DNA from: a bacterium
Lineage (GTDB): Bacteria > Campylobacterota > Campylobacteria > Campylobacterales > Sulfurimonadaceae
Length of the DNA: 64,000 nucleotides
Assembly: GCA_018825665.1 (NCBI GenBank)
Contig: JAHJEG010000017.1
Location: 1-64,000 of the forward strand
Direction: 5' to 3'
In this document: piece after piece, positions 4,253 to 57,293 of the stretch
Layout: each line of letters begins with the position of its first letter
How positions within the stretch are numbered: position 1 is the stretch's first letter
Made by a program: the position numbers and the translations under genes
The notes under the pieces: model-generated
What the model saw: the letters and a program-made list of their open reading frames with translations, nothing else
Told to the model about the DNA's origin: nothing
Database searches by the model: none

Positions 4253-4279
4253 CCGGCATGTGGAACTTCCACATGCCGG
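4253..4279. repeat. Inverted pair of the 11-mer: CCGGCATGTGGAA-C-TTCCACATGCCGG
   Basis: Perfect 13-bp arms around 1 nt, starting 9 nt after the stop of the DASS gene. Confidence 0.95.
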
Positions 4280-4296
4280 GGATAAGAACATAAAAA

Positions 4297-5160
4297 ATGA
4301 ACACTACCCACTTTACCTATCTCTTGATACTGGCAATGTTTTTATGGGGCGGGGGATGGACTGCCTTAAAAATACTGACCCTGGATCTGCCAATGGAAGT
4401 AATAATCTTTTGGCGATTTTTTATTATGAGCATCTCCTTTTTGCCCATACTTTATTTTCTAAAAAAACCGCTCATTTTAAATAGATCGAATCTAAAATAT
4501 ATAGCGGGGAGCTCTGTGCTCAACATAGCCTTTATGGTCTCATCCTTTTTGGCAATCAAGTACGGTTTTGCGGGAGCGGGAGGTGTGGTTATAACAACAC
4601 TCAGTCCGGTTATGACCTTTTTGCTTGTTGCCCTCATCTTTAAAAAAAGACTCCAAAACACTCAGTATTTCGGTCTTTTTATCGGTGTGATAGGAGGAGG
4701 CGTTATGTTGGAGCTTAACGATATGGACCTCTTTTTCAAGGGCTCAAACATCTACTTTTTGTTATGTGCGCTCATCTGGGCCGGCGTCACCATGCTCTCT
4801 CAGCATTCCAGGCAGCATATACACCCCATCCATTACAGTTTCGTAATCTCCGTTATCGCAAGCATCATCACATTTTTTTATGCGTACAACTTTGATTTAT
4901 CAAGTGTGTTTGAACAAGACGGCAGGTTTTGGATTGCAATGATTTATCTTGCCGTTCTTGGGCAGAGTGTGGCTACCACTATATTTTACATGGCAAGCGG
5001 AGAGCTTGGGAGCGAAAAGACCAGTTCCTTTATGTTCTTGGTTCCGGTCTTTGCCCTTTTGATAGCATGGATACTCCTGGACGAGCCAATGCTTACGCAT
5101 GTACTCATCGGCGGTGCGATAAGTCTGCTTGCGGTGTATTTTATAAATAAAAAACATTAA
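4297..5160 (+). CDS. EamA/DMT family transporter
   Basis: Polytopic, two EamA-like halves (WGGGWTALKI, FLVPVFALLIAWILLDEP). Confidence 0.85.
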   Translation: MNTTHFTYLLILAMFLWGGGWTALKILTLDLPMEVIIFWRFFIMSISFLPILYFLKKPLILNRSNLKYIAGSSVLNIAFMVSSFLAIKYGFAGAGGVVITTLSPVMTFLLVALIFKKRLQNTQYFGLFIGVIGGGVMLELNDMDLFFKGSNIYFLLCALIWAGVTMLSQHSRQHIHPIHYSFVISVIASIITFFYAYNFDLSSVFEQDGRFWIAMIYLAVLGQSVATTIFYMASGELGSEKTSSFMFLVPVFALLIAWILLDEPMLTHVLIGGAISLLAVYFINKKH

Positions 5161-5235
5161 AACTCCTATATTAATAGAGTTTTAACACCAGCTCTTGTAA
5201 TATTTATCATTAGATATTTCTATACAGGGTTATAA

Positions 5236-6420
5236 ATGAAACATATTCTTATCTTAGGCGGCGGATTTGCCGGGCTTGAAGCTGCAATATATTTAAAAAA
5301 AGCTGCTTTTGATGTGACACTTGTAAGTGAGAGGGATTATTTTTTCATCTATCCCACCTCCATCTGGATTCCGACAAGAGAGTCTGAGTTTGAAGATGTC
5401 TGCATAGATCTGCATCAGCTAAAGAGAGTGCACGGCTTTACTCTCATAGTGGATTCCATCACTCAAATCAATGCCAAAGAGGGCAATGTAACTTTAAAAA
5501 GCGGTACCTGCCTCAACAACTATGATTATCTCGTAGTGGCTATGGGAGCCTCTAAAATGAAGCATAAAGGGATTGAAAACACCTTGTCTATCTGTGGAGC
5601 TCCTCAGCAGTCTCTTCTCATTAGAGACAAGCTCGATGAGATCATTGCAAAAGGGAGTGCGAATATATGTTTTGGTTTTGGAGGCAATCCAAAGGACACC
5701 TCAGCCGTTCGCGGAGGACCTGGGTTTGAGCTTATGTTCAATGTCCATAATCTGCTGAAGAAAAAAGGCATCAGAGACAACTATAAACTGACATTTTTTG
5801 CTCCAATGCCTGAACCCGGAAAGAGGATGGGACCTCAGGCGCTTAAAATGATGGATCTTTTTTTTAAGAAGCTCCATATAGAAAAACATTTTGGCACAAA
5901 GATAAAATCTTTTGAAGATGACGGAATCGTATTTGAGGATGATACGAAACTTCATTCCGATTTTACAATGTTTATACCTGCGGGGAACGGGCATGAGGTG
6001 GTAAAAAACTCGGACCTGCCTACAAATGAAGCCGGATTCATCAAGATAGACGACTTTTGCAATGTTATATTTGAAGATACAATGATGCCTGAGAACATCT
6101 ATGCCATAGGTGATATCACGGCGCTTGAGGGGTATGACTGGAGAGCGAAGCAGGGGCACATCGCCGAAGTGATGGCCAGAAATGTTGCACATAATATACA
6201 AGCCAGAGAAGCCGGAAAATCAAACTTCAAAGGGTATCACAGGCATCTCAATATCTTATGCGTAATGGATAGCGGAGACGGTGCGGCCTTTGTTTACAGA
6301 GATGAGAAAAGAGCCTTTATGTTTCCCCTTCCCCTCATAGGCCACTGGCTGAAAAAAGCCTGGGGGAGTTATTGCAAGTATTCAAAACTTGGCAAAATAC
6401 CGAGAATACCGGGAATGTAA
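5236..6420 (+). CDS. Sulfide:quinone oxidoreductase-like FAD-dependent oxidoreductase
   Basis: GGGFAGLEAAIYL dinucleotide fold, YAIGDIT FAD motif, SQR-like length. Confidence 0.75.
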   Translation: MKHILILGGGFAGLEAAIYLKKAAFDVTLVSERDYFFIYPTSIWIPTRESEFEDVCIDLHQLKRVHGFTLIVDSITQINAKEGNVTLKSGTCLNNYDYLVVAMGASKMKHKGIENTLSICGAPQQSLLIRDKLDEIIAKGSANICFGFGGNPKDTSAVRGGPGFELMFNVHNLLKKKGIRDNYKLTFFAPMPEPGKRMGPQALKMMDLFFKKLHIEKHFGTKIKSFEDDGIVFEDDTKLHSDFTMFIPAGNGHEVVKNSDLPTNEAGFIKIDDFCNVIFEDTMMPENIYAIGDITALEGYDWRAKQGHIAEVMARNVAHNIQAREAGKSNFKGYHRHLNILCVMDSGDGAAFVYRDEKRAFMFPLPLIGHWLKKAWGSYCKYSKLGKIPRIPGM

Positions 6421-6550
6421 GCAAATATGCATCTCACACTAAATCCACATTTTTTGCCTTTATACTATCTGTTGAGAAAGAGAAATACAGGACTGAATGT
6501 CTGAATGAAGTGTAGACCTCTTTTGAAACACCTCCCTTAAAATTCTAGGA

Positions 6551-6594
6551 GGGTGTCGCGTCTTCTTACCCTTAAGGTGCGGCACCCTTTTTTT
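6551..6594 (+). terminator. Rho-independent terminator
   Basis: GGGTGTCGC / GCGGCACCC stem (one G-U) followed by 7 T. Confidence 0.7.
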
Positions 6595-7646: not shown

Positions 7647-8975
7647 TTATATTAAAATCCATGTAGCAAGCCCTAAAAAACTGAAAAAGCCCACAACATC
7701 TGTAACCGTTGTTAAAATAACCGTACTGCCGATGGCAGGATCCACATCCATTTTTTTTAAAAAAAGAGGTATCGTAGCGCCAAAAAAACCGGCCATGAAA
7801 AGATTGATAATCATGGACAGTGCAATTACAAGACCAAGCATCCACATGCCAAACCATACATACGCTATAGCACCCATCAGCAGAGCAAACAAAAATCCGT
7901 TTCCTATCGCTATGGCAAGCTCTTTTTTTATAATCCTCTGGGCATCACCCTTTGAGATATCTCCAAGGGCAAGCTGTCTTACAACAACGGTCAGACTTTG
8001 CGTACCGGCATTTCCGCCCATAGAGGCTACGATAGGCATAAGTACGGCAAGTGCTACCATACTCTCAAGCGTATCGGCAAATATCCCGATAACCACGGAT
8101 GCGGCTATAGCCGTAAAAAGATTTAACCCGAGCCAGGTAGCTCTTTTCCTTCCGGCTTTGATAATCTCATCATCTTCCTCCGCCTCATCATCGACACCGG
8201 CAAGGTTATACATCTGTTCTGTAGCGTGCTCATTGATAATATCATAGATATCATCCGATGTAATACGCCCCAGCAAGACACCATAGGCATTTGTGACCGC
8301 CAAAACCGACAGGTCATACTCTTCGAAATAGTGCACAACCTCTTTGATATCTTCTCTGTCATGCGCTTTTTTGGGCTCAAAGTTTTTGCCTGATTCTTTA
8401 ATGTTCTGCGTCAGTGTTTTTGAAAAATCAAATGTCAGAAGGTCGTCGAGTCCTATAGCGTAAACGAGTTTGTCATCTTTTTGGGTTATAAAAAGATTTT
8501 GAACATTCTCAAGTTCATTCAACTTTCGTAAATGTGAAAATCTTGACACTACATCCTGCACGATCTCGCTTTTATGTGCTGTAAAGACCTCCGTCTGCAT
8601 ATAGGCACCGGCTTCAAAATCTTCATAGTTCTGCAGTCTTGCGATATCGACCTGGTCTTCCCTGTTAAGGTTCTTAAAAACCTTGGAAGCCACATGTTCG
8701 TCAAGTTCTTCAAGTTCCTGCATAAAATTGGCTTGGTCATCACTCTCAAGCTCAGACACCGCCAAGGAGAGTTCATCAATACTTAAAGACTCGACAATAT
8801 CATCAAAGTATCTGTCCGGAGCCGCAAGGGCGACATCACCGATAATATCTTTTGGGATAAGTTTTATGGCAGCAGCGAGCTCGCTCTCATCAAGCTCTTT
8901 AAGGATCTTTGCTATATCTGATGGATGAATCTCACTAAGTTCATGAGAATTTAAATATTCTTCTACTTTATTCAT
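7647..8975 (-). CDS. mgtE: Magnesium transporter MgtE
   Basis: MgtE N-terminal + CBS + transmembrane domain (MPIVASMGGNAGTQSLTV). Confidence 0.93.
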   Translation of the reverse strand: MNKVEEYLNSHELSEIHPSDIAKILKELDESELAAAIKLIPKDIIGDVALAAPDRYFDDIVESLSIDELSLAVSELESDDQANFMQELEELDEHVASKVFKNLNREDQVDIARLQNYEDFEAGAYMQTEVFTAHKSEIVQDVVSRFSHLRKLNELENVQNLFITQKDDKLVYAIGLDDLLTFDFSKTLTQNIKESGKNFEPKKAHDREDIKEVVHYFEEYDLSVLAVTNAYGVLLGRITSDDIYDIINEHATEQMYNLAGVDDEAEEDDEIIKAGRKRATWLGLNLFTAIAASVVIGIFADTLESMVALAVLMPIVASMGGNAGTQSLTVVVRQLALGDISKGDAQRIIKKELAIAIGNGFLFALLMGAIAYVWFGMWMLGLVIALSMIINLFMAGFFGATIPLFLKKMDVDPAIGSTVILTTVTDVVGFFSFLGLATWILI

Positions 8976-9207
8976 GTGACTCTATATATGATTTAACATG
9001 CCCGAAGTTTACACAACTTTGCACATGCCATGTTTTGATGGCGATATTATACACTATAATAAGCATTAAGAACTTATACCAAAAATTACTTTTTATACAA
9101 TCGGCTTCGCAGCAGCTATTCTATTATTTTCAGTAAATAATGTTTTTAAATATTGATTAAGCACTTAAGTTCTACAATGACGCTAACTTACACTATAAGG
9201 ATACTCA

Positions 9208-9729: not shown

Positions 9730-11553
9730 ATAAATAAATTACTTTTTACTTTTATTTTTTGTATTTGCTTTTTAAACGCCTCCTCCCTTGAGTATAAAGA
9801 GGAAGCAAAAAAGATGAATCTTCACCAAGAGAGATACTGGCAGCTTTTACTTCACATGGTTGATGGGACAAGCGAAATTGACGATAGCAGCTTTTTTTTG
9901 GCCAAAGACGGAAAAACAGATGCAGACAGTGAACTGCAGGCCACTCTGGATTCCTTTTTTCAAGCAGGCACACATGATGACAATTCAACCCTGTGCAGAT
10001 TTCCCGCCAGAAAGGCCTGGCTGCAGGAAAAATTAAATATTATCGATTTTCCACATGCCGGATGTGATGAGTATGACAAGATACTCAAAAGACTCAATCC
10101 AAAATCAGCGACCCTGGTTTTTCCCTCCGCGCATATAAATTCGCCGGCTTCTATGTTTGGACATACCTTTTTAAGAATAAACTCCGCCTATGAATCAAGA
10201 CTGCTCTCCTATGCCATTAACTATGCGGCAGATGCGAATCCCGATGACACAAATGCGGTATTATTTGCAGTCAAAGGACTCTTTGGGGGTTATTTCGGAA
10301 AATATTCCCTGCTTCCGTATTACGACAAACTAAAAGAGTACAGAGATACCGAACAAAGAGACATCTGGGAATATGATCTGGATTTGAGCGAAGAGGAAAC
10401 ACTAAAGATGGTCAGGCATATATGGGAGCTAAACGGTACACACTCCTATTATTACTTTTTTACGGAGAACTGCTCATACAACATGCTATGGCTTATAGAA
10501 CTTGCCAGACCCGATATCCATCTGAGGGAGCATTTTAACTTTGAGGTCATCCCTCTTGAGACAGCGCATATTGTAAAACAAGAGGGGATTATCAGCCAGA
10601 ATAATTACAGACCCTCAAAAAGATCCATTCTCCTTAAGTATGAAGAACTGATTGAGGATGCCTATCTCCACATGCCAAGGTCCCTGATAGAAAACAAGAT
10701 ACCGCTTCAGGATATCACACAAAATATCGATATCCCTCTGCAGCAAAAAAGATATATACTCGAAGCCTCTATAGAATATTTGGAATATTCATTCAGCAAA
10801 AGCCAAATGCAAAAAGAGGAGTATCTAAAGATGTTTCACAATATCTCAAAACAAAGGGCGGCCTTGGGTTTGGGTGAAAAACTGCACATCAGCACTCCCC
10901 AAAATCCTATAAACAGCCATAGAGCGGTACGGGCCACACTCGGAGCCGGCTTCAAAGAGAACAACAAAGCAGCATATCTTGGAATTCGCCCGGCATATCA
11001 CAGTCTCCAAGACAGTTCCTATGGATTTTTAAGAGGTACCCAAATAGAGTTTTTAAATCTCCTGCTGTCTTATTCGGACAAAAAAGTAGAAGTTGAAGAT
11101 GCGACGATCCTCTCTATAGTTTCTCTGGCACAAAGATCGGAGTTTTTTGACAGTTTTTCCTGGCGTACAAAGTTTGGATGGGACCAGAAATACATCGATT
11201 ATGGAACAGATTTTATAGGCAGTGTCGGTTTTGGATACAGCTGGGGAAATAAACTCGGGTATCTTTACTTTATGGCAGATCCGCTTTTTTATATAGCAAA
11301 AAACCCGCGCTTTGGAATCGGTGCAAGTGCAGGCTTGTGCATCGATTCCTATGAGTTTCTGAGTACAAATATAGAAGCAACAAACAGGTTTTATGATAAC
11401 GGCACAAAACAGCTGCTGGTTCAGGCTTCACAAAGTTTCAGACTATCGCAAAACCTTCAGGTAACATTTGAGTACGAATATACGGACAAGCTCCAAGACC
11501 TTAAAAAAGAAAAAGAGACACGGTCCAAGGCTAGCCTCAATTACTATTTTTAG
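9730..11553 (+). CDS. DUF4105 (Lnb-type) outer-membrane/periplasmic protein; probable ATA (or ATT 9727) start
   Basis: The ATG ORF starts at 9814 without a signal peptide; in-frame upstream codons encode NKLLFTFIFCICFLNASS with AGGAA about 10 nt before ATA; stop TAG lies upstream of ATT. Confidence 0.75.
   Translation: MNKLLFTFIFCICFLNASSLEYKEEAKKMNLHQERYWQLLLHMVDGTSEIDDSSFFLAKDGKTDADSELQATLDSFFQAGTHDDNSTLCRFPARKAWLQEKLNIIDFPHAGCDEYDKILKRLNPKSATLVFPSAHINSPASMFGHTFLRINSAYESRLLSYAINYAADANPDDTNAVLFAVKGLFGGYFGKYSLLPYYDKLKEYRDTEQRDIWEYDLDLSEEETLKMVRHIWELNGTHSYYYFFTENCSYNMLWLIELARPDIHLREHFNFEVIPLETAHIVKQEGIISQNNYRPSKRSILLKYEELIEDAYLHMPRSLIENKIPLQDITQNIDIPLQQKRYILEASIEYLEYSFSKSQMQKEEYLKMFHNISKQRAALGLGEKLHISTPQNPINSHRAVRATLGAGFKENNKAAYLGIRPAYHSLQDSSYGFLRGTQIEFLNLLLSYSDKKVEVEDATILSIVSLAQRSEFFDSFSWRTKFGWDQKYIDYGTDFIGSVGFGYSWGNKLGYLYFMADPLFYIAKNPRFGIGASAGLCIDSYEFLSTNIEATNRFYDNGTKQLLVQASQSFRLSQNLQVTFEYEYTDKLQDLKKEKETRSKASLNYYF
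10049..10059 (+). repeat. Exact TTCCACATGCC
   Basis: read directly. Confidence 0.95.
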
Positions 11554-17474: not shown

Positions 17475-18350
17475 TTGGACATTATTTTGAAAAAGACTCT
17501 TATAGCTCACTCGCCCGATGCAGATGATATCTTTATGTACTACGCCATCAAGTTTGGCTGGGTAGATATGAAAGATACCCATTTTGACAATATTGCAAAA
17601 GATATTCAGACCCTCAACGAAGATGCACTCAAGGGCGTTTATGACATAGTCGCTATCAGTTTTGCCCTTTATCCGCATATAAAAGATGAGTACGCTCTGC
17701 TTCGCACTGCGGTAAGCTTTGGCGAAGGATACGGACCAAAAGTCATCAAGAGAAAAGGCACGAGCCTAAAGAAAAACTTCAAAGTCGCCCTTAGCGGAGA
17801 GCATACCACCAATGCGATGCTCTTTCGTATAAAATTTCCACATGCCAGAATCAGCTATATGAATTTTTTGGAGATCGAGCAGGCTGTACTTGATGGAAAA
17901 GTCGATGCAGGTGTTTTAATCCACGAATCTATCTTAACCTACGCAGACGAACTTGAGGTCGAGATAGAGATGTGGGATATTTGGCAGGAACTCGCCGGAG
18001 ATGCTCTTCCCTTGCCGCTTGGAGGCATGGCGATACGCCGCTCTATTCCCCTGAACAAAGCCATAGAGTACGAAAACACTTTGACAAAAGCGGTTCAGGT
18101 GGCACGTGACCACAAAGACAGGCTCTCCAAAATGCTTTTGGAGAGAGATTTGGTCCGAATAGATGCACCGACTCTGGATAAATATCTTGAGCTCTATGCG
18201 AATGATGCATCGATTACATTGAGTGCTGTTCAGTATCAGGCAATCAACAAACTTTTTGAAATAGGGTATAAGAACGGTTTTTACAGTTCCCCCATACAAA
18301 TAGAGGATTATCTTATCCCGACCGAGTATAAAGATTTAAGGAATTCATAA
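17475..18350 (+). CDS. mqnD: 1,4-dihydroxy-6-naphthoate synthase (menaquinone, futalosine pathway)
   Basis: AHSPDADDIFMYYA, ALPLPLGGMAIRR. Confidence 0.88.
   Translation: MDIILKKTLIAHSPDADDIFMYYAIKFGWVDMKDTHFDNIAKDIQTLNEDALKGVYDIVAISFALYPHIKDEYALLRTAVSFGEGYGPKVIKRKGTSLKKNFKVALSGEHTTNAMLFRIKFPHARISYMNFLEIEQAVLDGKVDAGVLIHESILTYADELEVEIEMWDIWQELAGDALPLPLGGMAIRRSIPLNKAIEYENTLTKAVQVARDHKDRLSKMLLERDLVRIDAPTLDKYLELYANDASITLSAVQYQAINKLFEIGYKNGFYSSPIQIEDYLIPTEYKDLRNS
17836..17846 (+). repeat. Exact TTCCACATGCC
   Basis: read directly. Confidence 0.95.
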
Positions 18351-18620: not shown

Positions 18621-19459
18621 TGAGCTATAAAAGCGTAAACTTTTCTAAGTTTTCTTCCATAAAGATTGGCGGTACCCTGGATGTAAAACTGCTTGAAAAT
18701 GCTCAGGACTACAGCAGCCGTTATTACATCATCGGCTCCTCCAACAACACCCTCATAGGAACACAGCCTCCCCCTCTGATGATGCTCAGCAAAAAGTATG
18801 ATTACATAAAGATACAAGACAATATGCTTAAGATAGGAGCTGCCACACCCTCAGGAAAGATAGCCTCCTTCTGCAAAAAACACGACATTGCCAATTTTGA
18901 ATTTGTATCGCATCTTCCCGGCACTCTGGGAGGACTGGTCAAGATGAATGCGGGACTCAAGGAGTATGAGATTTTTAATAATCTTATCTCTATTTCCACA
19001 TGCCGGGGTGACTACGAAAAAAAAGAGCTGAACTTCAGATACAGATATACAGATATCAATGCACCGATTTTAGAGGCGAGCTTTATTCTGGCATGTGGAT
19101 TCGACAAACAAAAAGTCGAGCTGTTTAAAAACATGCGTTCGAATCAGCCAAATACGCCGAGTGCGGGAAGCTGCTTTAAAAATCCCGCCGGAGACTATGC
19201 GGGAAGGCTTATAGAAGCTGTGGGCTTAAAGGGCTTTAAAGTCGGAGATATGGAGTTTAGCACCGTCCACGCAAATTTTTTGGTCAACCATGGCGCAGGA
19301 AATTTTAAAGATGCGATATTTTTAATTCAGGAAGCTCAAAAAAGAGTCTATGAGAGATTTGGAATTTGGCTTGAGAATGAAATCATAGTGCTGGACAAAA
19401 GATATATGGGCAAAGACTCGCCTCTATTAAATCCCCGCACAAAAGACAAACAGAGCTAA
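18620..19459 (+). CDS. murB: UDP-N-acetylenolpyruvoylglucosamine reductase
   Basis: LPGTLGGLVKMNAG, PSAGSCFKNP, HANFLVN. Confidence 0.95.
   Translation: MSYKSVNFSKFSSIKIGGTLDVKLLENAQDYSSRYYIIGSSNNTLIGTQPPPLMMLSKKYDYIKIQDNMLKIGAATPSGKIASFCKKHDIANFEFVSHLPGTLGGLVKMNAGLKEYEIFNNLISISTCRGDYEKKELNFRYRYTDINAPILEASFILACGFDKQKVELFKNMRSNQPNTPSAGSCFKNPAGDYAGRLIEAVGLKGFKVGDMEFSTVHANFLVNHGAGNFKDAIFLIQEAQKRVYERFGIWLENEIIVLDKRYMGKDSPLLNPRTKDKQS
18994..19004 (+). repeat. Exact TTCCACATGCC
   Basis: read directly. Confidence 0.95.
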
Positions 19460-26402: not shown

Positions 26403-27167
26403 TTAAAAACGAAGCATCAAACCCGCATAAACACCTGAAAAATCAAGATCCATCTTGGCATCTACGCTGTCTTCATCGATTTTGATTTTTTGTACTCTGT
26501 ATCCAAGTTCAAGTGCAGGTTGGATAACAGGGAAAAAATCAAGCGTGTAGTCTACTTTCGCACGCGCATCATAGATTGTTGATGAACCGCTTGTTACGTA
26601 TTTTACATCCGCTTCGACACCAATGTTTGTAACCGGGATTTCTGTACGAACTCTTGCGTAGAGCATAGGAAGAGCAATACTCGTCGTATCACTGTAAGAA
26701 GTATCGGTACTGCCCGGGATCGTTACGCCATCGGCAGTATAAGACATATTCATCACTTTTAAATCCACACCAAGATCCAATGTTATCCAAAATGTGTTAT
26801 CCAAAATGTTGTAATAAGGGATGATATCAAACTGTGTCATCTCAAGAGATGTTGCCGAAGTAGCCGGGATGGTAAAGTTTTTAAAAGTACCTGTTGCCTC
26901 ACCGGTATTTTTTAAAGAAACATACTCCACTCTAAGGTTTGGAATGATAGGAACAGGATGTTTTATCAACAGCCAGGCATAGTTTTGCGTTTCCTCTTTT
27001 TCCAAAGACTTGTCGCTACCGCTTGAAACACCGTCCGTATAGCTTATCTCACCGCTTGGTTTTTGCATCCATGCACCCGCACCCATCTCAACTCTTGCGA
27101 AATCTGCGCTGGCAGTCGTAGCCAGAACAATTCCACATGCCAAAGTAGACAAAATCTTTTTCATCAT
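26403..27167 (-). CDS. TIGR04219-like outer membrane beta-barrel protein
   Basis: MMKKILSTLACGIVLATTASADFARVEMGAGAWMQKPSG; terminal beta-barrel strand with F. Confidence 0.75.
   Translation of the reverse strand: MMKKILSTLACGIVLATTASADFARVEMGAGAWMQKPSGEISYTDGVSSGSDKSLEKEETQNYAWLLIKHPVPIIPNLRVEYVSLKNTGEATGTFKNFTIPATSATSLEMTQFDIIPYYNILDNTFWITLDLGVDLKVMNMSYTADGVTIPGSTDTSYSDTTSIALPMLYARVRTEIPVTNIGVEADVKYVTSGSSTIYDARAKVDYTLDFFPVIQPALELGYRVQKIKIDEDSVDAKMDLDFSGVYAGLMLRF
27131..27141 (+). repeat. Exact TTCCACATGCC
   Basis: read directly. Confidence 0.95.
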
Positions 27168-27989: not shown

Positions 27990-28973
27990 CTATAAATCAC
28001 TTCTCGGTGCTATATCCAGCTCTTGCAGGGAAGTAAACATCTTCTTGTTATACATTTCAACTGCGACTCTGCCAATCATTGCCGCATTGTCTGAACAATA
28101 TTTTAGCTCACTTAAAATTAAATCTGCTTTGTGCGGTCTTAACAGTTCTTCTATCTGCGAACGAAGATATAAGTTGGCACTCGCTCCGCCGACTATGGCA
28201 AAGGTCTTGGGCACGTTTGTCTGAAAATATTTTTTTAGTTTTTGGATGATATGCGCTGTCGCTATATGCTCAAATGACGCCGCTATATGCGGATAATCCT
28301 CTTTGTCTGCACCCTCTACTGCAAGTCTCACAGCATTTTTAAGCCCTGAATATGAAAAAGCTATCAGCGGTGATCGGTGTAGAGGAACGGTAAATTTATA
28401 TCTGTTTCTCTCTCCGTTTTTTGCAAGTTCCTCAATCAAAGGGCCGCCCGGATAGCCAAGCCCCATCATCTTGGCGACCTTGTCAAAACTCTCCCCAAAA
28501 CTGTCGTCCATACTTTTTGCAACCGTTTGTATATCATCAATGCTTTTTACTTCCATAACCTGGGTATGCCCGCCTGAGACCAAAAGAACACTCAGAGGAA
28601 ACTTCGCCTCTTTTTCTATAAAAAGCGAATAGATATGCCCTATGAGGTGATTCACGCCGATGAGAGGGATATTGAGGGCAACCGATATGGCCTTGGCCAT
28701 AGTCACGCCCTCTACAAGCGTGACAGCAAGACCTGGACTCGATGTCACAGCCACGGCTTTTAAATCTTTGAAATACGGTTCACACTCCTGGAGTATTTTT
28801 GGAAGAGCTTCGGCATGGAGTCTTGCGGCAAGTTCCGGAACTACGCCACCGTATACCGAGTGCTCAAGCTCCTGGGATATCTTCTTGTGAAACAAAAGCC
28901 GGCATGTGGAGATCTCTGTAATCGCAATTGCACTGTCATCACAGCTGCTTTCTATGGATAATATCAATTCCAA
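27990..28973 (-). CDS. tsaD: tRNA threonylcarbamoyladenosine modification protein TsaD
   Basis: [43 protein letters not shown]. Confidence 0.97.
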
Positions 28974-32922: not shown

Positions 32923-34878
32923 ATGAAAAAAACAATACAAATATCACTCGCCTCAGTTGCTCTGCTAAGCCAGCTTCAAGCAGACAAAGCCATTACCCTC
33001 GAACCGCTCACGGTTACATCGACCGCCATCCAGACGGATGAGCTCAAAGCCGCGGATGCCGTGGAAGTATATACGCAGGAGGATATCCAAAAGGCGCATG
33101 TTCAGAATGTTTACGAGTTTTTAAACCAGCACACCTCTGTCATCACAATGCCAAGCTATGGAAACCCTTTCACCCAAAAGCTCGATTTTCACGGCTACGG
33201 GATAGGAGACGGTTATCAAAACATAGTAGTGACAATCAACGGCAGAAAAATCAACAACATAGATATGGTCGCACCTCTTTTGAGCTCCGTTTCTCCAAGT
33301 TCTATAGAGAGGATAGAGATTATAAAATCAAGCGGGATCGTAACCGGCGGTGATGGGGCAAATGCCGGTGTCATCAACATAAAGACCAAAAAGAGCAATG
33401 AGAAGGAGCTTTCTTTTTATGCAGGTACCTACAACACTTTTGCAGGTTCCTTTTACCTCGGACACAGCGATGAGAACCTCTCTGTCTCTGCAAGCGGTGA
33501 AGCCCAAAAAAGCGGCGGAATCCGTCATGTGGACAATGATGGCAACAAGGACGCAAGCAGACTTTCCACAGGTACTTTTGATTTGTCCTACAAAGCTTCC
33601 AAGGAGCTTGAGCTGAGACTGGGCGCATCCTTCAGCAAGGCGGATATCATCTACGGCAGTTACCTCAGCCAAGACCAATATGAAGAAGACACGACACAAA
33701 AAAGCAGCAGTTATTACTCCGCGACACATCAGCTTTACGACACAAATACACTCAGCGGCGGCCTGAGCTATTACATCAATGATGAATTCAGTATAAAGAT
33801 TGATGCGAATCACGAAAAGAAAAGGTCGCAATATATAACATATTCAAGTATCTCCGACTATGAATACAACTCTGCAAAATCGACCTTGGATTATGAGAAT
33901 CAGGGTATAAGTGTTTCAGCGGGTATCGATATTTTTGAGGGCACAAGAGATTCACATGCCAACTTTTATGCAATCGCAAATGAAACCACCAAGAAAAATC
34001 TGGCCGGTTTTATTATGAGCAGATTTAATTTTGCCAAGCACTCGCTAAAAGCCGGATACAGATATGAGCGTGTCGCCTATGCCTTTAGCGATGCCTTCAC
34101 ATCCAACAAAGAGGAGAAAGTCTTGCATGGTGCCGAGCTTGGATACAACTATACCTTTGACAAAGAAAACTCTGTCTTTGTCAACTATGCACACTCCTAT
34201 CAGGCTCCCGATATCGACAGATTTTTCAGCTATGGCAGCTTTAACGGCTTTATAAATCCTATGCAGGCAAACAGCCTGACACTTGGGTATAACTCTATAA
34301 CTAACACTAACAAACTTAAAATTTCGGCGTATTATATAGATTTGCAGGATGAGATCTATTACTACAATGACCTTGTAAACAGCTGGCCGGCACCTAGTCT
34401 CTCCGTCAATACGAATATAGACAAATCCCGCAAATACGGAATCGACGTATACGACAAATATTTGATATCGGGCATGTGGAACCTTGCCCTGAACTACAAT
34501 TATGTTCAGGCGATTATCGATGAGGAAACAGGACGCAACAATGAGGACTACTCAGGAAACAAACTCCCGGGCGTCAGCGAACACAACGCAAAAGCGACTC
34601 TGAGCTATCTGCCGAGTCCACATGCCACGATTGCTCTGACACAGATCTACAGAAGCCAGGCATATGCAATAAATGACTTCGATAACGACCTCAACCAAAA
34701 ACAGGATCCCTACAAAAGCACGGATATCTCTGTGACGTATGCCAAAGACAATTATGAAGTTTTCGCTAAAATAAACAATCTGTTCAATCAGAAAAACGGT
34801 TTATGGATAAAAGATGATACTATTTATCCCGTCAATTTTACCACTACGGCAATGGCCGGATTTAAACTGAAATACTAA
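32923..34878 (+). CDS. TonB-dependent outer membrane receptor (possibly cobalamin)
   Basis: Plug-domain pattern SIERIEIIKSSGIVTGGDGANAGVINIKTKK and barrel; upstream of cobalamin genes. Confidence 0.85.
   Translation: MKKTIQISLASVALLSQLQADKAITLEPLTVTSTAIQTDELKAADAVEVYTQEDIQKAHVQNVYEFLNQHTSVITMPSYGNPFTQKLDFHGYGIGDGYQNIVVTINGRKINNIDMVAPLLSSVSPSSIERIEIIKSSGIVTGGDGANAGVINIKTKKSNEKELSFYAGTYNTFAGSFYLGHSDENLSVSASGEAQKSGGIRHVDNDGNKDASRLSTGTFDLSYKASKELELRLGASFSKADIIYGSYLSQDQYEEDTTQKSSSYYSATHQLYDTNTLSGGLSYYINDEFSIKIDANHEKKRSQYITYSSISDYEYNSAKSTLDYENQGISVSAGIDIFEGTRDSHANFYAIANETTKKNLAGFIMSRFNFAKHSLKAGYRYERVAYAFSDAFTSNKEEKVLHGAELGYNYTFDKENSVFVNYAHSYQAPDIDRFFSYGSFNGFINPMQANSLTLGYNSITNTNKLKISAYYIDLQDEIYYYNDLVNSWPAPSLSVNTNIDKSRKYGIDVYDKYLISGMWNLALNYNYVQAIIDEETGRNNEDYSGNKLPGVSEHNAKATLSYLPSPHATIALTQIYRSQAYAINDFDNDLNQKQDPYKSTDISVTYAKDNYEVFAKINNLFNQKNGLWIKDDTIYPVNFTTTAMAGFKLKY
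34471..34481 (-). repeat. Exact TTCCACATGCC (minus strand)
   Basis: read directly. Confidence 0.95.
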
Positions 34879-35462: not shown

Positions 35463-35881
35463 GCTACGGTCTATGGTTTGATGCACATGCCAAAAAGCAC
35501 AAAAGTATCATTGACAAACTCTTGGCATGTGGAAGTTCAAAAGAGCAGATTATAGAATACTTCGTTTTTGAGAACATGGTGAAAAACGAACCTGATTTTT
35601 GCCCTCTTTTTGCCCAGAATAAAAAATGCCACGCTATGCAGGAACTCAACTGCTACCTCTGCGCCTGTCCAAACTTCCGTTTTGATGATGAGGGGATAAA
35701 AAAAGTGGACGACAAAACACAGTACAGCTACTGCTCCATCGACTCAAAAGAGGGCAGTCTCGGAGTCTACGGGCAAGCCATCCACCAAGACTGCTCCGCA
35801 TGCACAGTTCCACATGCCGGGGATTATGTACGAAAACATTTTGATTTGGACTGGAAGAAGATTATGAAAAACTGCCGCTGA
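35459..35881 (+). CDS. Cysteine-rich hypothetical protein upstream of cobQ
   Basis: CYLCAC, CSAC and other Cys; translationally coupled. Confidence 0.7.
   Translation: MSYGLWFDAHAKKHKSIIDKLLACGSSKEQIIEYFVFENMVKNEPDFCPLFAQNKKCHAMQELNCYLCACPNFRFDDEGIKKVDDKTQYSYCSIDSKEGSLGVYGQAIHQDCSACTVPHAGDYVRKHFDLDWKKIMKNCR
35524..35534 (-). repeat. Exact TTCCACATGCC (minus strand)
   Basis: read directly. Confidence 0.95.
35808..35818 (+). repeat. Exact TTCCACATGCC
   Basis: read directly. Confidence 0.95.
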
Positions 35882-35993: not shown

Positions 35994-37391
35994 ATGAACT
36001 CTTTAAGCATATTCGGCACCAGCAGTGATGCCGGAAAATCTACTCTCTCTTTTGCCATTACCTATCTTTTGCATCACCGCGGCATCAAAGTGGCCCCTTT
36101 TAAAGCGCAGAATGTTTCCAACAACTCAAAGGTTTGTGATGATGGCGGGGAGATTGCTATTCCTCAGCATTTTGCGGCGGAGGCTATCGGGATAAAGACA
36201 TCCCATTTTATGAATCCCATCCTTATCAAGTCCGGCTTTCAAAACTCCGCACATCTGATTATAAACGGAAAAGCGGTCGGCGAAAAAGATACCATCCAAT
36301 ACTACGAAGATATCGACACCCTCAAACCCCATGCCAAAAAAGCGTTTAAAAAACTTCTCAAAGAGTATGAATGCATTGTGGCCGAGGGAGCAGGAAGTCC
36401 CGTGGAACTCAACCTGATGGACAAGGACCTCTCAAATATCTACATAGCAGATACATTCAACACGAAGATTATCCTGGTCGCTGATATAGAGCGGGGCGGT
36501 GTTTTTGCTTCTATCGTCGGTGTCTATGCCCTGCTTCCCGAAAAGCTGAGAAAAAACGTCCTGGGTGTAATCATCAACAAATTCCGCGGAGATATGCGCC
36601 TCTTTTATGACGGTGTCCATATCATCGAAGAGCGTTTTGGCATCAAGGTTTTGGGTGTTGTTCCCTACAAAGCTTTTAACCTCGGATTTGAGGACAGCCA
36701 GTCGCTCATGAACTATACGCAAGACACCAAAAATGCTCTTATCAGAGTAGGTGTCATCAGGCTTCCCCACATCAGCAATTTCACAGATTTCGAACCTCTT
36801 GTGGCGGATGGGGAGATAGAGCTCTCTTTTATCTCAAATCCGAGCGAGGTTTCCACATGCCAGATACTGATACTTCCCGGGAGCAAAAGAGTCGTCGACG
36901 ATTTGGCATGGCTCAGGGAAAGGGGCTTTTGTGAGCATCTTCTCTCCCATGAAAAAACCATCATAGCCATCTGCGGAGGCTACGAGATGATGTTTGAACG
37001 TCTTTTGGATCCTTGGCATGTGGAATCAGAACAAAAAGAGGTCAGCGGATTGGGACGATTGAAGGGTGATGTGGTTTTTGCGCAGGAGAAGATTGTGCAA
37101 AAAGGGTGCTACCGCGTCTTTAGGACTATGGTAGAGGGCTATGAGATACATAATGCAGTTGCAAAAAAAAGGGTCAAAAGAAAAAAAAACCTTTACGGAA
37201 CATTTATACACGGCATTTTTGAAAGTGACGCATTAAGAGAAAAAATCTTCTCTGAAGTGGATTCCCGCTACAAAGGCTATTGTTTTAAAGACTACAAGAC
37301 CAAAGCCATTACAGATTTTACGAGCCATGTCTCAGAACATGTGGATATAGATTTTATCGAGAGTGAACTGCGAAATGATAGAGAAGCGTGA
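35994..37391 (+). CDS. cobQ: Cobyric acid synthase
   Basis: GTSSDAGKSTLSFAI, APFKAQNVSNNS, AEGAGSPVELNL, ICGGYEMM. Confidence 0.95.
   Translation: MNSLSIFGTSSDAGKSTLSFAITYLLHHRGIKVAPFKAQNVSNNSKVCDDGGEIAIPQHFAAEAIGIKTSHFMNPILIKSGFQNSAHLIINGKAVGEKDTIQYYEDIDTLKPHAKKAFKKLLKEYECIVAEGAGSPVELNLMDKDLSNIYIADTFNTKIILVADIERGGVFASIVGVYALLPEKLRKNVLGVIINKFRGDMRLFYDGVHIIEERFGIKVLGVVPYKAFNLGFEDSQSLMNYTQDTKNALIRVGVIRLPHISNFTDFEPLVADGEIELSFISNPSEVSTCQILILPGSKRVVDDLAWLRERGFCEHLLSHEKTIIAICGGYEMMFERLLDPWHVESEQKEVSGLGRLKGDVVFAQEKIVQKGCYRVFRTMVEGYEIHNAVAKKRVKRKKNLYGTFIHGIFESDALREKIFSEVDSRYKGYCFKDYKTKAITDFTSHVSEHVDIDFIESELRNDREA
36851..36861 (+). repeat. Exact TTCCACATGCC
   Basis: read directly. Confidence 0.95.
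37015..37025 (-). repeat. Exact TTCCACATGCC (minus strand)
   Basis: read directly. Confidence 0.95.
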
Positions 37392-42253: not shown

Positions 42254-43306
42254 ATGACAAGCTATAATATATTCACAAACGAAGAAGACTCACTCCCCTC
42301 CGGAAAGGCCGATTTTTTACTGGCGGCCTCTGTTACAGGTATCTGCACTCTTGAGGGGATAACCCAGAGTGATGCGCAGATGATTTCGCTTATGCCTACA
42401 CTTGATGCGGAGTTTATTGCCAATGAGAAGGTCTTTTCTTCAAGCCATCCGGCAGAAACCCCAAACGGCGTGCCGACTCCCTCCATCATCACGCGGGCTG
42501 TTCACAATGTAATCCCTTTTAAATCCATAGAGATCCTCAATCTCGGACTCAATACGGCTCCTCAAAATTCCACATGCCATAATTTTGACATTTTACCCAG
42601 CAAACCCTTGACGATGGGATCGGGAATCGATGCAAGGGCGGTATTTGCCAAAGGTCTCGCCGCCGGTAAGAGTTACGAACTCAAAGGCAACTATCTCATC
42701 CTCGCCGAGGGCACGCCGGGAGGTACGATTACAGCGGCTGCGACAGCTCTTGCTCTGGGATATAACTGTGCAGACGACTTTTCTTCAAACTTTTTAAACA
42801 TCCCCTGCGATATCAAAGAAGAAACCATACAAAAGGCCCTCTCTTTGATACACGAGGATATGGATACTTTTGAGATTCTCTCTTTGGTCGGGGACAATAT
42901 GCTTATTTTTTGCGCCGGATTTTTAATGGAAGCCAGTAGAAGATTCCACGTGGTGCTGGCGGGAGGAACACAGATGGCGGCTTGTCTGCTTGTGGCAGAC
43001 AGACTAAGAGAGGATGTTCTCATGAGGGTCAAAGATGCAAACATCACGCTTGCCACCACACTCTGGATAGCCAACGACAGCAACTCAAATATCAAACATC
43101 TTCTCTCACTGCTGAGCTTTACTCCACATGCCGTATATACTGACTTCAGTTTTGCCGATGCCCAGATTCAGGTTTTGCATCAGTATGACGAGGGGGCCAT
43201 AAAAGACGGTGCGGGTGCCGGAGGGGCACTCGCCTATGCCGCGGCACATCATATAAGCAATAAAAAACTTTTAGAAAGTATTGAGCATATTTTATACTTG
43301 ATGTAA
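42254..43306 (+). CDS. CobT-like nicotinate-nucleotide--dimethylbenzimidazole phosphoribosyltransferase family
   Basis: LAEGTPGGTITAAATALALGY, VLAGGTQMAACLLV; ATG 42254 preferred to 42215 (CorA overlap). Confidence 0.8.
   Translation: MTSYNIFTNEEDSLPSGKADFLLAASVTGICTLEGITQSDAQMISLMPTLDAEFIANEKVFSSSHPAETPNGVPTPSIITRAVHNVIPFKSIEILNLGLNTAPQNSTCHNFDILPSKPLTMGSGIDARAVFAKGLAAGKSYELKGNYLILAEGTPGGTITAAATALALGYNCADDFSSNFLNIPCDIKEETIQKALSLIHEDMDTFEILSLVGDNMLIFCAGFLMEASRRFHVVLAGGTQMAACLLVADRLREDVLMRVKDANITLATTLWIANDSNSNIKHLLSLLSFTPHAVYTDFSFADAQIQVLHQYDEGAIKDGAGAGGALAYAAAHHISNKKLLESIEHILYLM
42568..42578 (+). repeat. Exact TTCCACATGCC
   Basis: read directly. Confidence 0.95.
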
Positions 43307-44954: not shown

Positions 44955-44977
44955 GGCATGTGGAACTTCCACATGCC
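44955..44977. repeat. Inverted pair of the 11-mer: GGCATGTGGAA-C-TTCCACATGCC
   Basis: Identical 23 bp to 4255-4277; 3 nt after the MCP stop, followed by a T-rich tract between convergent genes. Confidence 0.95.
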
Positions 44978-49993: not shown

Positions 49994-52384
49994 ATGAAAT
50001 ACATCCGTTTTTTCAATGAGCTTACAATCAGTGACGTCCCCTCTGTCGGCGGCAAAAATGCTTCTTTGGGGGAGATGTACAAAAATCTCTCCGCCAAAGG
50101 CATCAATGTGCCAAACGGCTTTGCAACGACCAGCGAAGCGTATTGGCTGCTCCTGAGTGAGAATAATATCAAGGAGAAGATTGAGAGTATTCTCAGTGAT
50201 TTGGATATCTCCGACACCCGGAACCTTCAAAAAAGGGGGCTTGAAGTTCGTAATCTCATCCTTGCTTCTCACATGCCGAAAGTTCTTGAAGATGAAATTC
50301 TCGAAGCGTATCAGATTCTCTCAAAAGAGTACTCCGCTGAAGCGGCTGACGTGGCAGTCAGGTCTTCAGGAACCGCCGAGGATTTGCCCGACGCCTCCTT
50401 TGCAGGACAGCAGGAGACCTTTTTAAATATCAACACCCCCGAATATCTGCTAAAGTGCGTGCATAAGTGCTTTGCCTCTCTTTTTACGGACCGTGCCATC
50501 AGCTACCGCACAAGCAGGGGTTTTAACCATTTCAAAGTCGCACTCTCCGTCGGGGTGCAAAAAATGGTCAGAAGCGACCGCTCCTCAAGCGGGATCATGT
50601 TCACCATAGACACTGAGAGCGGTTCTCCCGATTTGATACTGATTAACTCTATCTGGGGTCTGGGTGAGAATGTGGTCAGCGGAAAAGTCAATGCCGATGA
50701 GTTCTTTGTCTTCAAGCCGACGCTCAAAAAAGGGATAAACAGCATACTCAAACGCTCTTTGGGTTCCAAAAAAGAGAAGATGCTCTACGGCGATGACGGA
50801 TCAAAGACTCTGAATGTTTCCACATGCCAGGAGGAGCAGAACAGCTTTTCGATAAATGACGAAGAGGTGATGGAACTCGCAAAACAGGCGGTCATTATAG
50901 AAGATCATTACAAACGCCCCATGGATATAGAATGGGCGAAAGATGCGGATGAGAATAAGCTCTATATCGTCCAGGCAAGACCCGAAACAGTAAAAAGCAA
51001 AGATTCCCATGCTCTTGGGATGCAAAAATACGCTCTTAGCTCCACAGAAAATCTCAAGGTCCTCACCAAAGGCAGAGCAGTCGGAGACAAAATCGGCGCA
51101 GGCGAGGTCAAGATCATACGAAATACCTCCGAATTTTCCACTTTTAACAAAGGGGATATTCTTGTAGCAGACACCACAAATCCGGACTGGGAACCGGTGA
51201 TGAAAAAGGCTTCCGCCGTTGTCACAAACAGAGGAAGCCGCACCTGCCATGCCGCCATCGTTGCCAGAGAAATCGGCGTGCCGGCGGTCGTGGGATGTGT
51301 GGATGCAACAGAGATGCTCAACAACGGACAAAGCGTTACCGTCAGTTGCGCGCAGGGTGATGAGGGATTTATCTATGATGGCATCCTGGAATTTACAATG
51401 CAAAACATAAATTTTGAACACCTCCGCTCCACAAACACAAAACTCTTTATGAACATAGGAAATCCCGCAGAAGCCTTCAATCTTGCAAAGATGCCAAATG
51501 ACGGTGTCGGGCTTGCCAGAATGGAATTTATCATCAACAACTATATCAACGCCCATCCAATGGCACTTGTGGATATGGATAAGGGTCTGAATGTAAAAGA
51601 CGAAGAACAGATCCGCTCTTTTATGGTTCCACATGCCGACACCAAAGAGTTTTTTCTCCAGAAGATAAGCGAGGGCGTAGGGATGATTGCAGCAGCTTTT
51701 TATCCCAGACCCGTGATTATCCGCACAAGCGACTTCAAAAGCAATGAATACAGGAACATGCCCGGAGGAGAGGTCTACGAAGCGGAGGAAGAGAACCCCA
51801 TGATAGGCTTCAGGGGTGCAAGCAGGTACTACGACAAGAGCTATCAAAAAGCTTTTGAGTGGGAATGCGAGGCACTAAAAAGAGTGCGTGAGGAGATGGG
51901 TTTTACAAATATAAAGATTATGCTCCCCTTTGTCAGAACGCCGCTTGAGGGGAAAAAGGTGGTAGAGATCATGAATGCAAAAGGCCTGGTTCAGGGGGTC
52001 GATGCGCTTGAGATTTATGCCATGTGCGAAATACCGGCGAATGTACTTTTGGCCGATAAGTTCTTAGAGGTGTTTGACGGCTTTTCTATAGGCTCAAACG
52101 ACCTGACACAGCTGACCCTCGGAGTAGACAGAGAGAGCGCGAAAATAGCCCATATATTCGATGAAAGAGATGAGGCTGTTTTAAAAATGCTTGAGATGGC
52201 GATTACAGCTTGTAAAAAAGCGAACAAATACATAGGGATCTGCGGGCAGGCTCCATCGGATTATCCGGAGATAACAAAGTTTTTGGTAGAGCACGGCATT
52301 GATTCCATCTCCCTAAACCCAGATTCATTATTTAAGATGCATAAGGTTATAATCGAGCTGGAAAATCCACAAAAAGAAGAATAA
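49994..52384 (+). CDS. ppsA: Phosphoenolpyruvate synthase
   Basis: VPSVGGKNASLGEM, GSRTCHAAIVAREIGVPAVVG, CGQAPSDYPE. Confidence 0.96.
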   Translation: MKYIRFFNELTISDVPSVGGKNASLGEMYKNLSAKGINVPNGFATTSEAYWLLLSENNIKEKIESILSDLDISDTRNLQKRGLEVRNLILASHMPKVLEDEILEAYQILSKEYSAEAADVAVRSSGTAEDLPDASFAGQQETFLNINTPEYLLKCVHKCFASLFTDRAISYRTSRGFNHFKVALSVGVQKMVRSDRSSSGIMFTIDTESGSPDLILINSIWGLGENVVSGKVNADEFFVFKPTLKKGINSILKRSLGSKKEKMLYGDDGSKTLNVSTCQEEQNSFSINDEEVMELAKQAVIIEDHYKRPMDIEWAKDADENKLYIVQARPETVKSKDSHALGMQKYALSSTENLKVLTKGRAVGDKIGAGEVKIIRNTSEFSTFNKGDILVADTTNPDWEPVMKKASAVVTNRGSRTCHAAIVAREIGVPAVVGCVDATEMLNNGQSVTVSCAQGDEGFIYDGILEFTMQNINFEHLRSTNTKLFMNIGNPAEAFNLAKMPNDGVGLARMEFIINNYINAHPMALVDMDKGLNVKDEEQIRSFMVPHADTKEFFLQKISEGVGMIAAAFYPRPVIIRTSDFKSNEYRNMPGGEVYEAEEENPMIGFRGASRYYDKSYQKAFEWECEALKRVREEMGFTNIKIMLPFVRTPLEGKKVVEIMNAKGLVQGVDALEIYAMCEIPANVLLADKFLEVFDGFSIGSNDLTQLTLGVDRESAKIAHIFDERDEAVLKMLEMAITACKKANKYIGICGQAPSDYPEITKFLVEHGIDSISLNPDSLFKMHKVIIELENPQKEE
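50818..50828 (+). repeat. Exact TTCCACATGCC
   Basis: read directly. Confidence 0.95.
51627..51637 (+). repeat. Exact TTCCACATGCC
   Basis: read directly. Confidence 0.95.
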
Positions 52385-54812: not shown

Positions 54813-55079
54813 ATGAAATACAGACTCCTGCTCTCTTTACTTTTTATCGTTGCCACTGTTTTTACGGCCGTGCATGAGATAAAGCACGTAGAACACCATG
54901 AGAGTTCCACATGCCAGGTCTGTATTGTGGATGACCACTCTGTATCCTTTGATATCGTAGATGACTTCAAAGAAACCCAACTTTTCAAGCATATCTATAT
55001 CTCTTCCTACAAAATACGTTCAAGTCCGCATGCCATCAATAAAAGCAACAATTCCCGCGCGCCTCCTCTCGTCTCCTAA
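54813..55079 (+). CDS. Small secreted His/Cys-containing hypothetical protein upstream of zinc uptake genes
   Basis: Signal peptide; HEIKHVEHHESSTCQVC. Confidence 0.65.
   Translation: MKYRLLLSLLFIVATVFTAVHEIKHVEHHESSTCQVCIVDDHSVSFDIVDDFKETQLFKHIYISSYKIRSSPHAINKSNNSRAPPLVS
54905..54915 (+). repeat. Exact TTCCACATGCC
   Basis: read directly. Confidence 0.95.
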
Positions 55080-55129
55080 ATCAAAAAACAAACAACTTTA
55101 CAAATATAAAATAATTATTTAGGATACTT

Positions 55130-56407
55130 ATGAAAAAAATACTAACGATTACTGCACTTTGTGCAAGCATGGCTTATGCGGGAGCAGATGTGCTTCCTGT
55201 AGAAAAACGAACTTTTGAGCAATCCAAGTTTATACCCGACATCTCTCTTATTATGGATGCATCCTTCGTGCATAGAAGTGTGAGTGACGATGAGGCACCC
55301 CATTTGGAAGTGCCGGGAATCGCTCACGGCCTTTTGGGTTCTCACGCACATGAGGGTGCGACACATACCATATATAATGAGAACAACGGCTTTAACCTCA
55401 ACTATGCGGAGCTGGTCTTGTCAAGTTCTGTAGATCCCTTTTTTACAATGGATGGGGTATTTCATATCTCCGAACACGGTTTTGAGATTGAGGAGCTGTT
55501 CTTCACCTCGAATGCTCTAGGCGATGGTCTGAGACTCAAAGGGGGGAAATTCAGCTCAAACTTCGGCTACCTCAACGAGCATCACCATCACGCCTGGGAT
55601 TTTGCCGATATGCCTCTGGTCTATGAATCCTTTTTGGGGATGCACGGGATAAACGAAAAGGGTGTACAGCTTCAATGGACGGCACCCACATCCTTGTACC
55701 TTATGTTCGGAGTAGAGGTGCTTCAAGGTGATAATGAACAGATGTTTGGAAACAAGACCATAGGCGATTCCGAAATCACGACCATCTCAAAATATGCAAA
55801 TACTCCTTCTCTTTATGTAGGCTATGTAAAAACATCTTTTGATATAGAAGATACGACTGTTTTGGCAGGGCTATCTTATGCAAGGGGTTCTTCCAGAATC
55901 GACCACAGCAGTGATGAAGAGAATCCGCATGCCTTTAGCGGTATGAGTTCGCTTTACGGAGCGGATCTAGTGATAAAGCACTATTTTGACTCCTACAGCT
56001 TTTTGGCGCTTCAAAGTGAATATCTAAGCAGAAAGATGGACGGGGAGCAGTATTCAAATATAGATACGAGCGTAGACCCGTATACCTATGCGACAACGGA
56101 CATGACCAAAAAACAAAGCGGATTTTATTCTCAGCTCACCTATGCCTATGACAAAAACTACAGATTCGGTGCAAGATACGATCAGATTACGCAAAACGAG
56201 ATCAGTGTGTCTAGCGCTTTTTCTCCTGAAAATATGAACAAATATTCCATTATGGCGGAATACCATACAAGTGAATTTGCAAGATTCAGATTACAGTACA
56301 ACCGAAACAATGCTCTGTACAACGAAGCGAATGAGCAGCAGCATATCGATACGATTATTCTTCAGGCGAATATCTCCATCGGTGCGCATGCGGCCCACAG
56401 TTTTTAA
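55130..56407 (+). CDS. Putative zinc-associated outer membrane protein
   Basis: Signal peptide, beta-barrel pattern, His-rich loops (NEHHHHAWDF), next to a ZnuA-like gene. Confidence 0.7.
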   Translation: MKKILTITALCASMAYAGADVLPVEKRTFEQSKFIPDISLIMDASFVHRSVSDDEAPHLEVPGIAHGLLGSHAHEGATHTIYNENNGFNLNYAELVLSSSVDPFFTMDGVFHISEHGFEIEELFFTSNALGDGLRLKGGKFSSNFGYLNEHHHHAWDFADMPLVYESFLGMHGINEKGVQLQWTAPTSLYLMFGVEVLQGDNEQMFGNKTIGDSEITTISKYANTPSLYVGYVKTSFDIEDTTVLAGLSYARGSSRIDHSSDEENPHAFSGMSSLYGADLVIKHYFDSYSFLALQSEYLSRKMDGEQYSNIDTSVDPYTYATTDMTKKQSGFYSQLTYAYDKNYRFGARYDQITQNEISVSSAFSPENMNKYSIMAEYHTSEFARFRLQYNRNNALYNEANEQQHIDTIILQANISIGAHAAHSF

Positions 56408-56417
56408 AAGGTAAAGA

Positions 56418-57293
56418 ATGTATAAACTTATACTCCTGCTCTTTTTGCCGCTAACGCTGTTAGCTCACTTAAATATCGCTGTTAGTTATCCCTACATAGG
56501 AGCGCTTACAAAAAGTATCGGCGGTGAGCATATACGTACGGTGGTTCTTGCAAAAGGAAACTGGGACCCCCATTTTGTGGTTCCCCGCCCTTCGCTTATT
56601 TCAAAAGTAAGAAATGCGGATGCCCTGATTATGAACGGAGGACAGCTTGAGATCGGCTGGCTTCCCCCGCTCATCAACCGTGCGGCAAACCCCAAAACAG
56701 CTTCGGATGCAAAAACATTTTTAAATCTTTCCTGGCATGTGGAACTCTTGGACAAACCCGCAGACGTGGACCGCTCAGGCGGAGATATCCATCCTGATGG
56801 AAATCCCCACTTTCACCTCGATCCCAACAATATTTTAATCCTGGCCGATGTTATCAAAAAGTTTCTCATCTCCATAGACGGCGAGCATAAAGAGGTGTAT
56901 GAGAAAAACTATCTGGAGTTTGAGGGGATGTGGAAATCCAAGCTCGGCATGTGGAAAGCAAAAATGCAAGACAAAAAAGGTTTGAAAGTGATTCAGTTTC
57001 ACAACAACCTCAGCTATTTCAACCAAGCCTACGGACTCGTAAATATCGGCACAATCGAACCGCTTCCGGGAATCCCTCCCTCATCAAAACATACCTTTGA
57101 GCTTATCAGGCTTATCAACGATGAAAAGCCCTGCTGCATACTCCATGATGTCTACCACTCAACCAAAACTGCTGAATATATCAGCGACAAAACAGGGATC
57201 AAAATAATCCTGATGCCCCACGACATAGGTGCACTCGAAGACATAGAAGACCTGAGTTCTCTTTTTGAATATCTTACGGGTGCAATACGATGA
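56418..57293 (+). CDS. Zinc/manganese ABC transporter substrate-binding protein (ZnuA-like)
   Basis: NWDPHFVVPRPS, NPHFHLDPNNI. Confidence 0.9.
   Translation: MYKLILLLFLPLTLLAHLNIAVSYPYIGALTKSIGGEHIRTVVLAKGNWDPHFVVPRPSLISKVRNADALIMNGGQLEIGWLPPLINRAANPKTASDAKTFLNLSWHVELLDKPADVDRSGGDIHPDGNPHFHLDPNNILILADVIKKFLISIDGEHKEVYEKNYLEFEGMWKSKLGMWKAKMQDKKGLKVIQFHNNLSYFNQAYGLVNIGTIEPLPGIPPSSKHTFELIRLINDEKPCCILHDVYHSTKTAEYISDKTGIKIILMPHDIGALEDIEDLSSLFEYLTGAIR
56734..56744 (-). repeat. Exact TTCCACATGCC (minus strand)
   Basis: read directly. Confidence 0.95.
56946..56956 (-). repeat. Exact TTCCACATGCC (minus strand)
   Basis: read directly. Confidence 0.95.

Follow-up and report, generated by a model that had tools for sequence, protein, structure and literature searches.

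A highly iterated DNA word in Sulfurimonas as a candidate uptake sequence, and unrelated words in its relatives

Why does a single 11-nucleotide word, TTCCACATGCC, recur throughout a stretch of DNA from the genus Sulfurimonas? The stretch, referred to below as the window, comprises positions 1–64,000 of contig JAHJEG010000017.1 (C24 in our numbering; assembly GCA_018825665.1), from a genome of 2.34 Mb in 59 contigs that is 98.6% complete (G000). An initial annotation of the window proposed that the word might serve sequence-biased natural transformation. Uptake sequences have been described only from Pasteurellaceae and Neisseriaceae (PMC7811141; PMC3630211). Our favoured explanation, which we consider probable though well short of certain, is that the word belongs to a third, independent system of this kind, and that related genomes use unrelated words in its place. 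We found no earlier report of uptake-like words from Sulfurimonas in the open literature searched.

Abundance, consensus and placement of the word

The 21 exact copies of TTCCACATGCC listed in the initial annotation were recovered at every position, 14 on the plus and seven on the minus strand. Four of them form the two inverted pairs described below. The other plus-strand copies lie at 10049–10059, 17836–17846, 18994–19004, 27131–27141, 29683–29693, 29728–29738, 35808–35818, 36851–36861, 42568–42578, 50818–50828, 51627–51637 and 54905–54915, and the other minus-strand copies at 34471–34481, 35524–35534, 37015–37025, 56734–56744 and 56946–56956. Under a third-order Markov model, 0.02 copies would be expected in the window, and 100 dinucleotide shuffles yielded a mean of 0.06 per window and a maximum of one. 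The 9-mer CCACATGCC occurs 29 times, in the 21 full copies and at exactly the eight additional positions reported earlier. These core copies read ATCCACATGCC (7840–7850, +; 19090–19100, −; 32082–32092, +), CTCCACATGCC (10666–10676, +; 28901–28911, −; 43122–43132, +) or GTCCACATGCC (29252–29262, +; 34616–34626, +). The variant TTGCACATGCC, which represents the most frequent one-mismatch form (TGCACATGCC, see below), is present at 9019–9029 (+) and 29321–29331 (−).

The over-representation is not confined to the window; outside it, too, the count lies far above the Markov expectation. Genome-wide, TTCCACATGCC is found 535 times, with both orientations used (281 and 254 on the two strands), and its 10-mer TCCACATGCC, hereafter word A, 721 times (376 and 345); the reversed control of either word gave no match. 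In 433 kb we counted 158 word A sites where a third-order Markov model predicts 0.5, an enrichment of about 300-fold. Neighbouring sites are on average 2.5 kb apart, and the longest word-free gaps, of up to 14.7 kb, are about as large as chance would produce.

Aligning the 158 sites gave the consensus (A)nT-TCCACATGCC-R-n-R, in which about 12 bp are conserved and positions further out are near background. The purine bias suspected at the downstream base is real (A 0.54, G 0.35). Only one single-mismatch form is frequent: TGCACATGCC was found 22 times in the 433 kb, and the other 29 single-base variants together 35 times.

The initial annotation described the word as lying mostly inside genes and scattered singly, and each statement holds in part. 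Open reading frames (ORFs) contain 131 of the 158 sites (83%), and all six reading frames are used, so it is the DNA that is conserved and not a peptide. However, intergenic DNA is enriched about two-fold, with 27 of the 158 sites in the approximately 7.5% of DNA that is non-coding (p = 5e-5). These data bear on the idea that the word is a short mobile element, a repeat of the repetitive extragenic palindromic (REP) or miniature inverted-repeat transposable element (MITE) kind, or a regulator binding site. REP-like repeats do occur in other Sulfurimonas genomes (G197 and G198). The conserved unit T-TCCACATGCC-R sits in random flanks, though, which argues that word A is not a mobile repeat, and the predominance of copies in ORFs, in all frames, speaks against this explanation as well; we give it almost no weight. 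The repeats with a REP-like look in these two genomes are CGTCATTGCG (about 26 copies in 18 kb of locus L166, G198) and AGGGTGTCA (15 copies in 20 kb of locus L170, G197).

Most copies are indeed single, but those at 4255/4267 and 44955/44967 are inverted pairs. Among pairs of sites within 30 bp of each other, five were inverted and one direct, where 1.8 close pairs of any kind would be expected. The first pair in the window (4255–4277; minus-strand copy at 4255, plus-strand copy at 4267) lies between two plus-strand genes and forms a hairpin with a predicted RNA fold of −26.5 kcal/mol (z = −6.6). The second (44955–44977; minus-strand copy at 44955, plus-strand copy at 44967) lies where two genes converge, between their stop codons, and its hairpin folds at −17.6 kcal/mol (z = −5.6) and −20.9 kcal/mol (z = −4.2). 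Both are located just past stop codons. Judged by position and predicted fold, the first appears terminator-like, and the second terminator-like in both directions. The same inverted-pair arrangement with strong hairpins is present in a relative, G118. Some inverted pairs stand at gene ends; for words B and C, introduced below, such pairs are rare.

By local GC skew, 59% of word A sites lie on the C-rich strand. Base composition alone predicts 60% and thus accounts for this slight preference. In G101, a complete genome that carries word C, 116 of 199 sites (58%) lie on the C-rich strand, without regional clustering. Strict orientation to the replication origin and terminus was given in the initial annotation as an example of what would speak for another role; neither word C in G101 nor word A against GC skew shows strict polarity, and we rejected replication polarity as an explanation. 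The lack of polarity and of clustering argues against signals of the KOPS (FtsK-orienting polar sequence), Chi and matS types. A word for chromosome organisation or segregation, of the KOPS, matS, parS, Noc or SlmA type, would share the abundance, species specificity and chromosome-wide spread seen here. It would fit poorly with the absence of replichore polarity and regional clustering in G101, with copy numbers from hundreds to 2331, and with replacement by unrelated words from species to species; we regard this possibility as largely refuted.

A recombination hotspot resembling Chi would make each word the regulatory octamer of an AddAB or RecBCD nuclease, differing by species. Chi words vary between species and are spread genome-wide, and E. 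coli has Chi sites at a density similar to that of the Sulfurimonas words. E. coli Chi, however, favours the leading strand, whereas the 59% in G000 (a figure that composition explains) and 58% in G101 refer to the C-rich, lagging-type strand, leaving 41–42% on the G-rich strand. The enrichment over the Markov expectation is also far stronger than for Chi, and hairpin-forming inverted pairs and a palindromic variant, word D, would ill suit an orientation-dependent signal. We therefore consider a Chi-like role improbable.

Unrelated words in related genomes

Counting TCCACATGCC in 228 genomes of the family identified 11 genomes of the same genus as strongly enriched (260–1302 copies) and eight as weakly enriched (31–183), while the maximum outside the genus was 19 copies per genome. 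Searches for over-represented words in 20-kb samples of relatives yielded three further words, which were then counted in 135 Sulfurimonas genomes. Word B, AAACGCAG, reaches 2331 copies (G193; reversed control 83). Word C, CTCACGCAG, reaches 487 (G101; reversed control 8) and is also present in Sulfurimonas indica NW8N (locus L077). Word D, TACATGTA, reaches 848 (reversed control 57) and is a palindrome, whereas A, B and C are not. Words B and C have ACGCAG in common; otherwise the four are mutually unrelated. In about 50 of the 135 genomes no word was identified, and other words may have been missed in samples of this size. G101 additionally contains AAACGCAG in a strand-asymmetric distribution (111 forward, 30 reverse), perhaps a repeat array.

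The words exclude one another. Each of the 69 strongly enriched genomes carries one word only (11 A, 29 B, 7 C and 22 D), with no double carriers. When weak carriers are included there are three overlaps against 20 expected, a number as low being reached in 0 of 20,000 label shuffles, a test that ignores phylogeny and uses class cut-offs set after the counts had been seen. The mutual exclusivity of word A with the other words is new.

On a tree of the ATP-citrate-lyase subunit AclB the words are scattered, requiring at least four changes for A and at least four for B. For instance, G108 (word A) clusters with G193 and G121 (word B) and with G088 and G099 (word D). We rejected an explanation by clade membership alone, since words A and B interleave on this single-gene tree. 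Words thus appear to switch among relatives, as judged from one gene for which recombination is possible.

Word D was found at 527–848 copies in G086, G088, G092, G095, G099, G103, G107, G153 and G190, others also carrying it, and it lies mostly inside ORFs where sampled. Two roles are conceivable for it, that of a fourth uptake word and that of a methylation-linked word like the highly iterated palindromes (HIPs) of cyanobacteria. The latter option leads to the strongest rival model, under which every word would be the target of an orphan methyltransferase and would owe its creation or retention to methylation-dependent mismatch repair; this has been proposed for cyanobacterial GCGATCGC and its replacements. 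HIP1 and the alternate HIPs are highly iterated words that replace one another across related genomes, and a separate methyltransferase belongs to each of them (Elhai 2015, PMC4390886). Word D, palindromic and mostly coding, suits this model better than A to C do. However, HIPs are GC-rich palindromes, and here only word D is palindromic, and AT-rich at that. Word A, with 10–12 bp, is long for the target of a single methylase, and inverted-pair terminators have not been described for HIPs in the literature searched. Overall, we consider the HIP-like model unlikely.

ComEC, pili and receptor candidates

If the words are uptake sequences, their carriers should possess the machinery of natural transformation. 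ComEC and type IV pilins, which are among the genes that the initial annotation suggested checking, are present in the genome of the window. ComEC was detected in 125 of the 135 Sulfurimonas genomes, and in 78 of the 79 good ones. Two sister genomes nested among word A carriers on the AclB tree deviate: in G151, comEC is split by approximately 8 kb with an in-frame stop (contig C15:14719–24110), and in G216, which is 99% complete, no ComEC was found, although a neighbouring gene is also missing and an assembly gap is possible. Their TCCACATGCC counts are 141 (G151) and 183 (G216), compared with 887–1302 in the nearest word A relatives G115, G118 and G150. These low counts, in one clade, fit a decay of the uptake word after loss of competence, a link that the HIP-like model does not predict.

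The pili were assessed from gene content; apart from ComEC, GspE, GspG and the pilin signatures, gene names were read from sequence and neighbourhood rather than from profile hits. The genome of the window contains tandem pilins adjoining flgB, flgC and fliE, a cluster resembling a type II secretion system (T2SS), a minor-pilin operon resembling that of the mannose-sensitive haemagglutinin (MSHA) pilus, and a lone FimT/GspH-like pilin. In relatives, the tandem pilins have flgBC-fliE on one side and a PriA-like gene of 614 aa on the other. The MSHA-like operon was present in 13 of 14 genomes examined; in the fourteenth, G109 (word B), only the tandem pilins were found at the cut-off used. We rejected the T2SS-like cluster as a general uptake machine because it is absent from near-complete, strongly word-bearing genomes such as G101 and G109. 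The cluster is dispensable, and given how widespread the MSHA-like operon is, the uptake pilus is more likely to be that of this operon or of the tandem pilins.

Candidate receptors were tried and rejected. The FimT/GspH-like pilin beside ATP-citrate lyase (C45) occurs in word-bearing and word-free genomes alike and is not sorted by word. Pilin1, pilin2 and the mshD-, mshO- and mshP-like pilins carry no signal of word class beyond that of recG and flgC.

Several loci deserve mention in their own right. In the genome of the window, the assembly breaks off some 200 bp past the lone FimT-like pilin gene (C45:1–200), and many draft relatives have a break at the same place, suggesting a repeat, perhaps a ribosomal RNA operon. 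The MSHA-like operon includes a giant protein of 2003 aa (L020:9716–15727; 657–2003 aa across the genus) that is MshQ- or PilY1-like by position. In G109, an ORF resembling a REP-associated transposase lies between two tandem pilin genes (L242:8802–9386). An 826-aa ORF for a DnaB-like replicative helicase on contig C50 of the genome of the window (L018:6775–9255) contains an apparent intein at the Walker A motif.

The words as probable uptake sequences

An uptake-sequence system would account for these observations as follows. TTCCACATGCC(R) would be a self-recognition word in natural transformation, comparable to the DNA uptake sequences (DUS) of Neisseriaceae. A DNA-binding minor pilin of a surface pilus would bind word-bearing double-stranded DNA, the pilus would draw it in, and ComEC would pass one strand to the cytoplasm. 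Recombination would then install word-bearing alleles, so that the word would build up genome-wide. A switch of receptor specificity between Sulfurimonas species may have given rise to words A to D, and closely spaced inverted copies may have been co-opted as transcription terminators.

The nearest precedent is found in Neisseriaceae, whose eight DUS dialects are built on one CTG core; each species has a single dialect, relatives may have different ones, and ComP is the receptor. Their DUS form inverted pairs at terminators (PMC3630211). Words A to C are likewise short and non-palindromic, present in hundreds to thousands of copies on both strands, and mostly genic. On nearly every sequence-level criterion tested, the Sulfurimonas words appear to match the DUS. 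They differ in belonging to another phylum, in being unrelated to GCCGTCTGAA and to one another apart from the ACGCAG of B and C, and in including a palindrome; moreover, no receptor was found for them among the six pilin families compared. The uptake signal sequences (USS) of Pasteurellaceae, of the AAGTGCGGT type and a dialect, with ComN/PpdA as predicted receptor, are also short iterated words and form terminator pairs (PMC13020248); a minor pilin of the FimT/PpdA class is a candidate receptor there too (PMC12616744). They have no sequence similarity to the Sulfurimonas words, and a whole family has two types of USS, compared with at least four word types in the single genus Sulfurimonas.

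Several observations weigh against an uptake function. The palindromic word D is unlike any known DUS or USS. Low counts also occur where ComEC is present (71 copies in G110, 140 in G207), so an intact ComEC is not predictive. Conversely, the word C genomes G101 and G120 have full word counts and a comEC damaged by premature stops (L244:16672–17937 in G101; contig C74:7242–8392 in G120); if the words serve uptake, this damage must be of recent date. Genomes in which no word was identified likewise possess ComEC and pilins, strong word carriers such as G101 and G109 lack the T2SS-like cluster, and in none of the six pilin families is the separation of word classes better than in housekeeping genes.

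The proposal of sequence-biased transformation nevertheless draws support from the abundance of a short conserved word, its use in both orientations, the hairpin pairs, the presence of ComEC and pilins, the exclusive words and the low counts in the clade with ComEC loss. The word does not characterise Campylobacterota as a whole: within the family, word A is enriched in part of one genus only. A broader proposal is that one genus repeatedly swapped its self-recognition word for unrelated ones, including a palindrome, that these words serve as rapid barriers to transformation between species, and that A to D belong to one system with switchable receptors, independent of those in Neisseriaceae and Pasteurellaceae. 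We put this forward tentatively, as conceivable yet somewhat short of probable.

If Sulfurimonas is truly an independent third case, its four word types among closely related and partly cultured species would make it directly testable how uptake specificity originates, switches and is lost. It would also suggest that gene exchange is sequence-biased in these ecologically important sulfur oxidisers.

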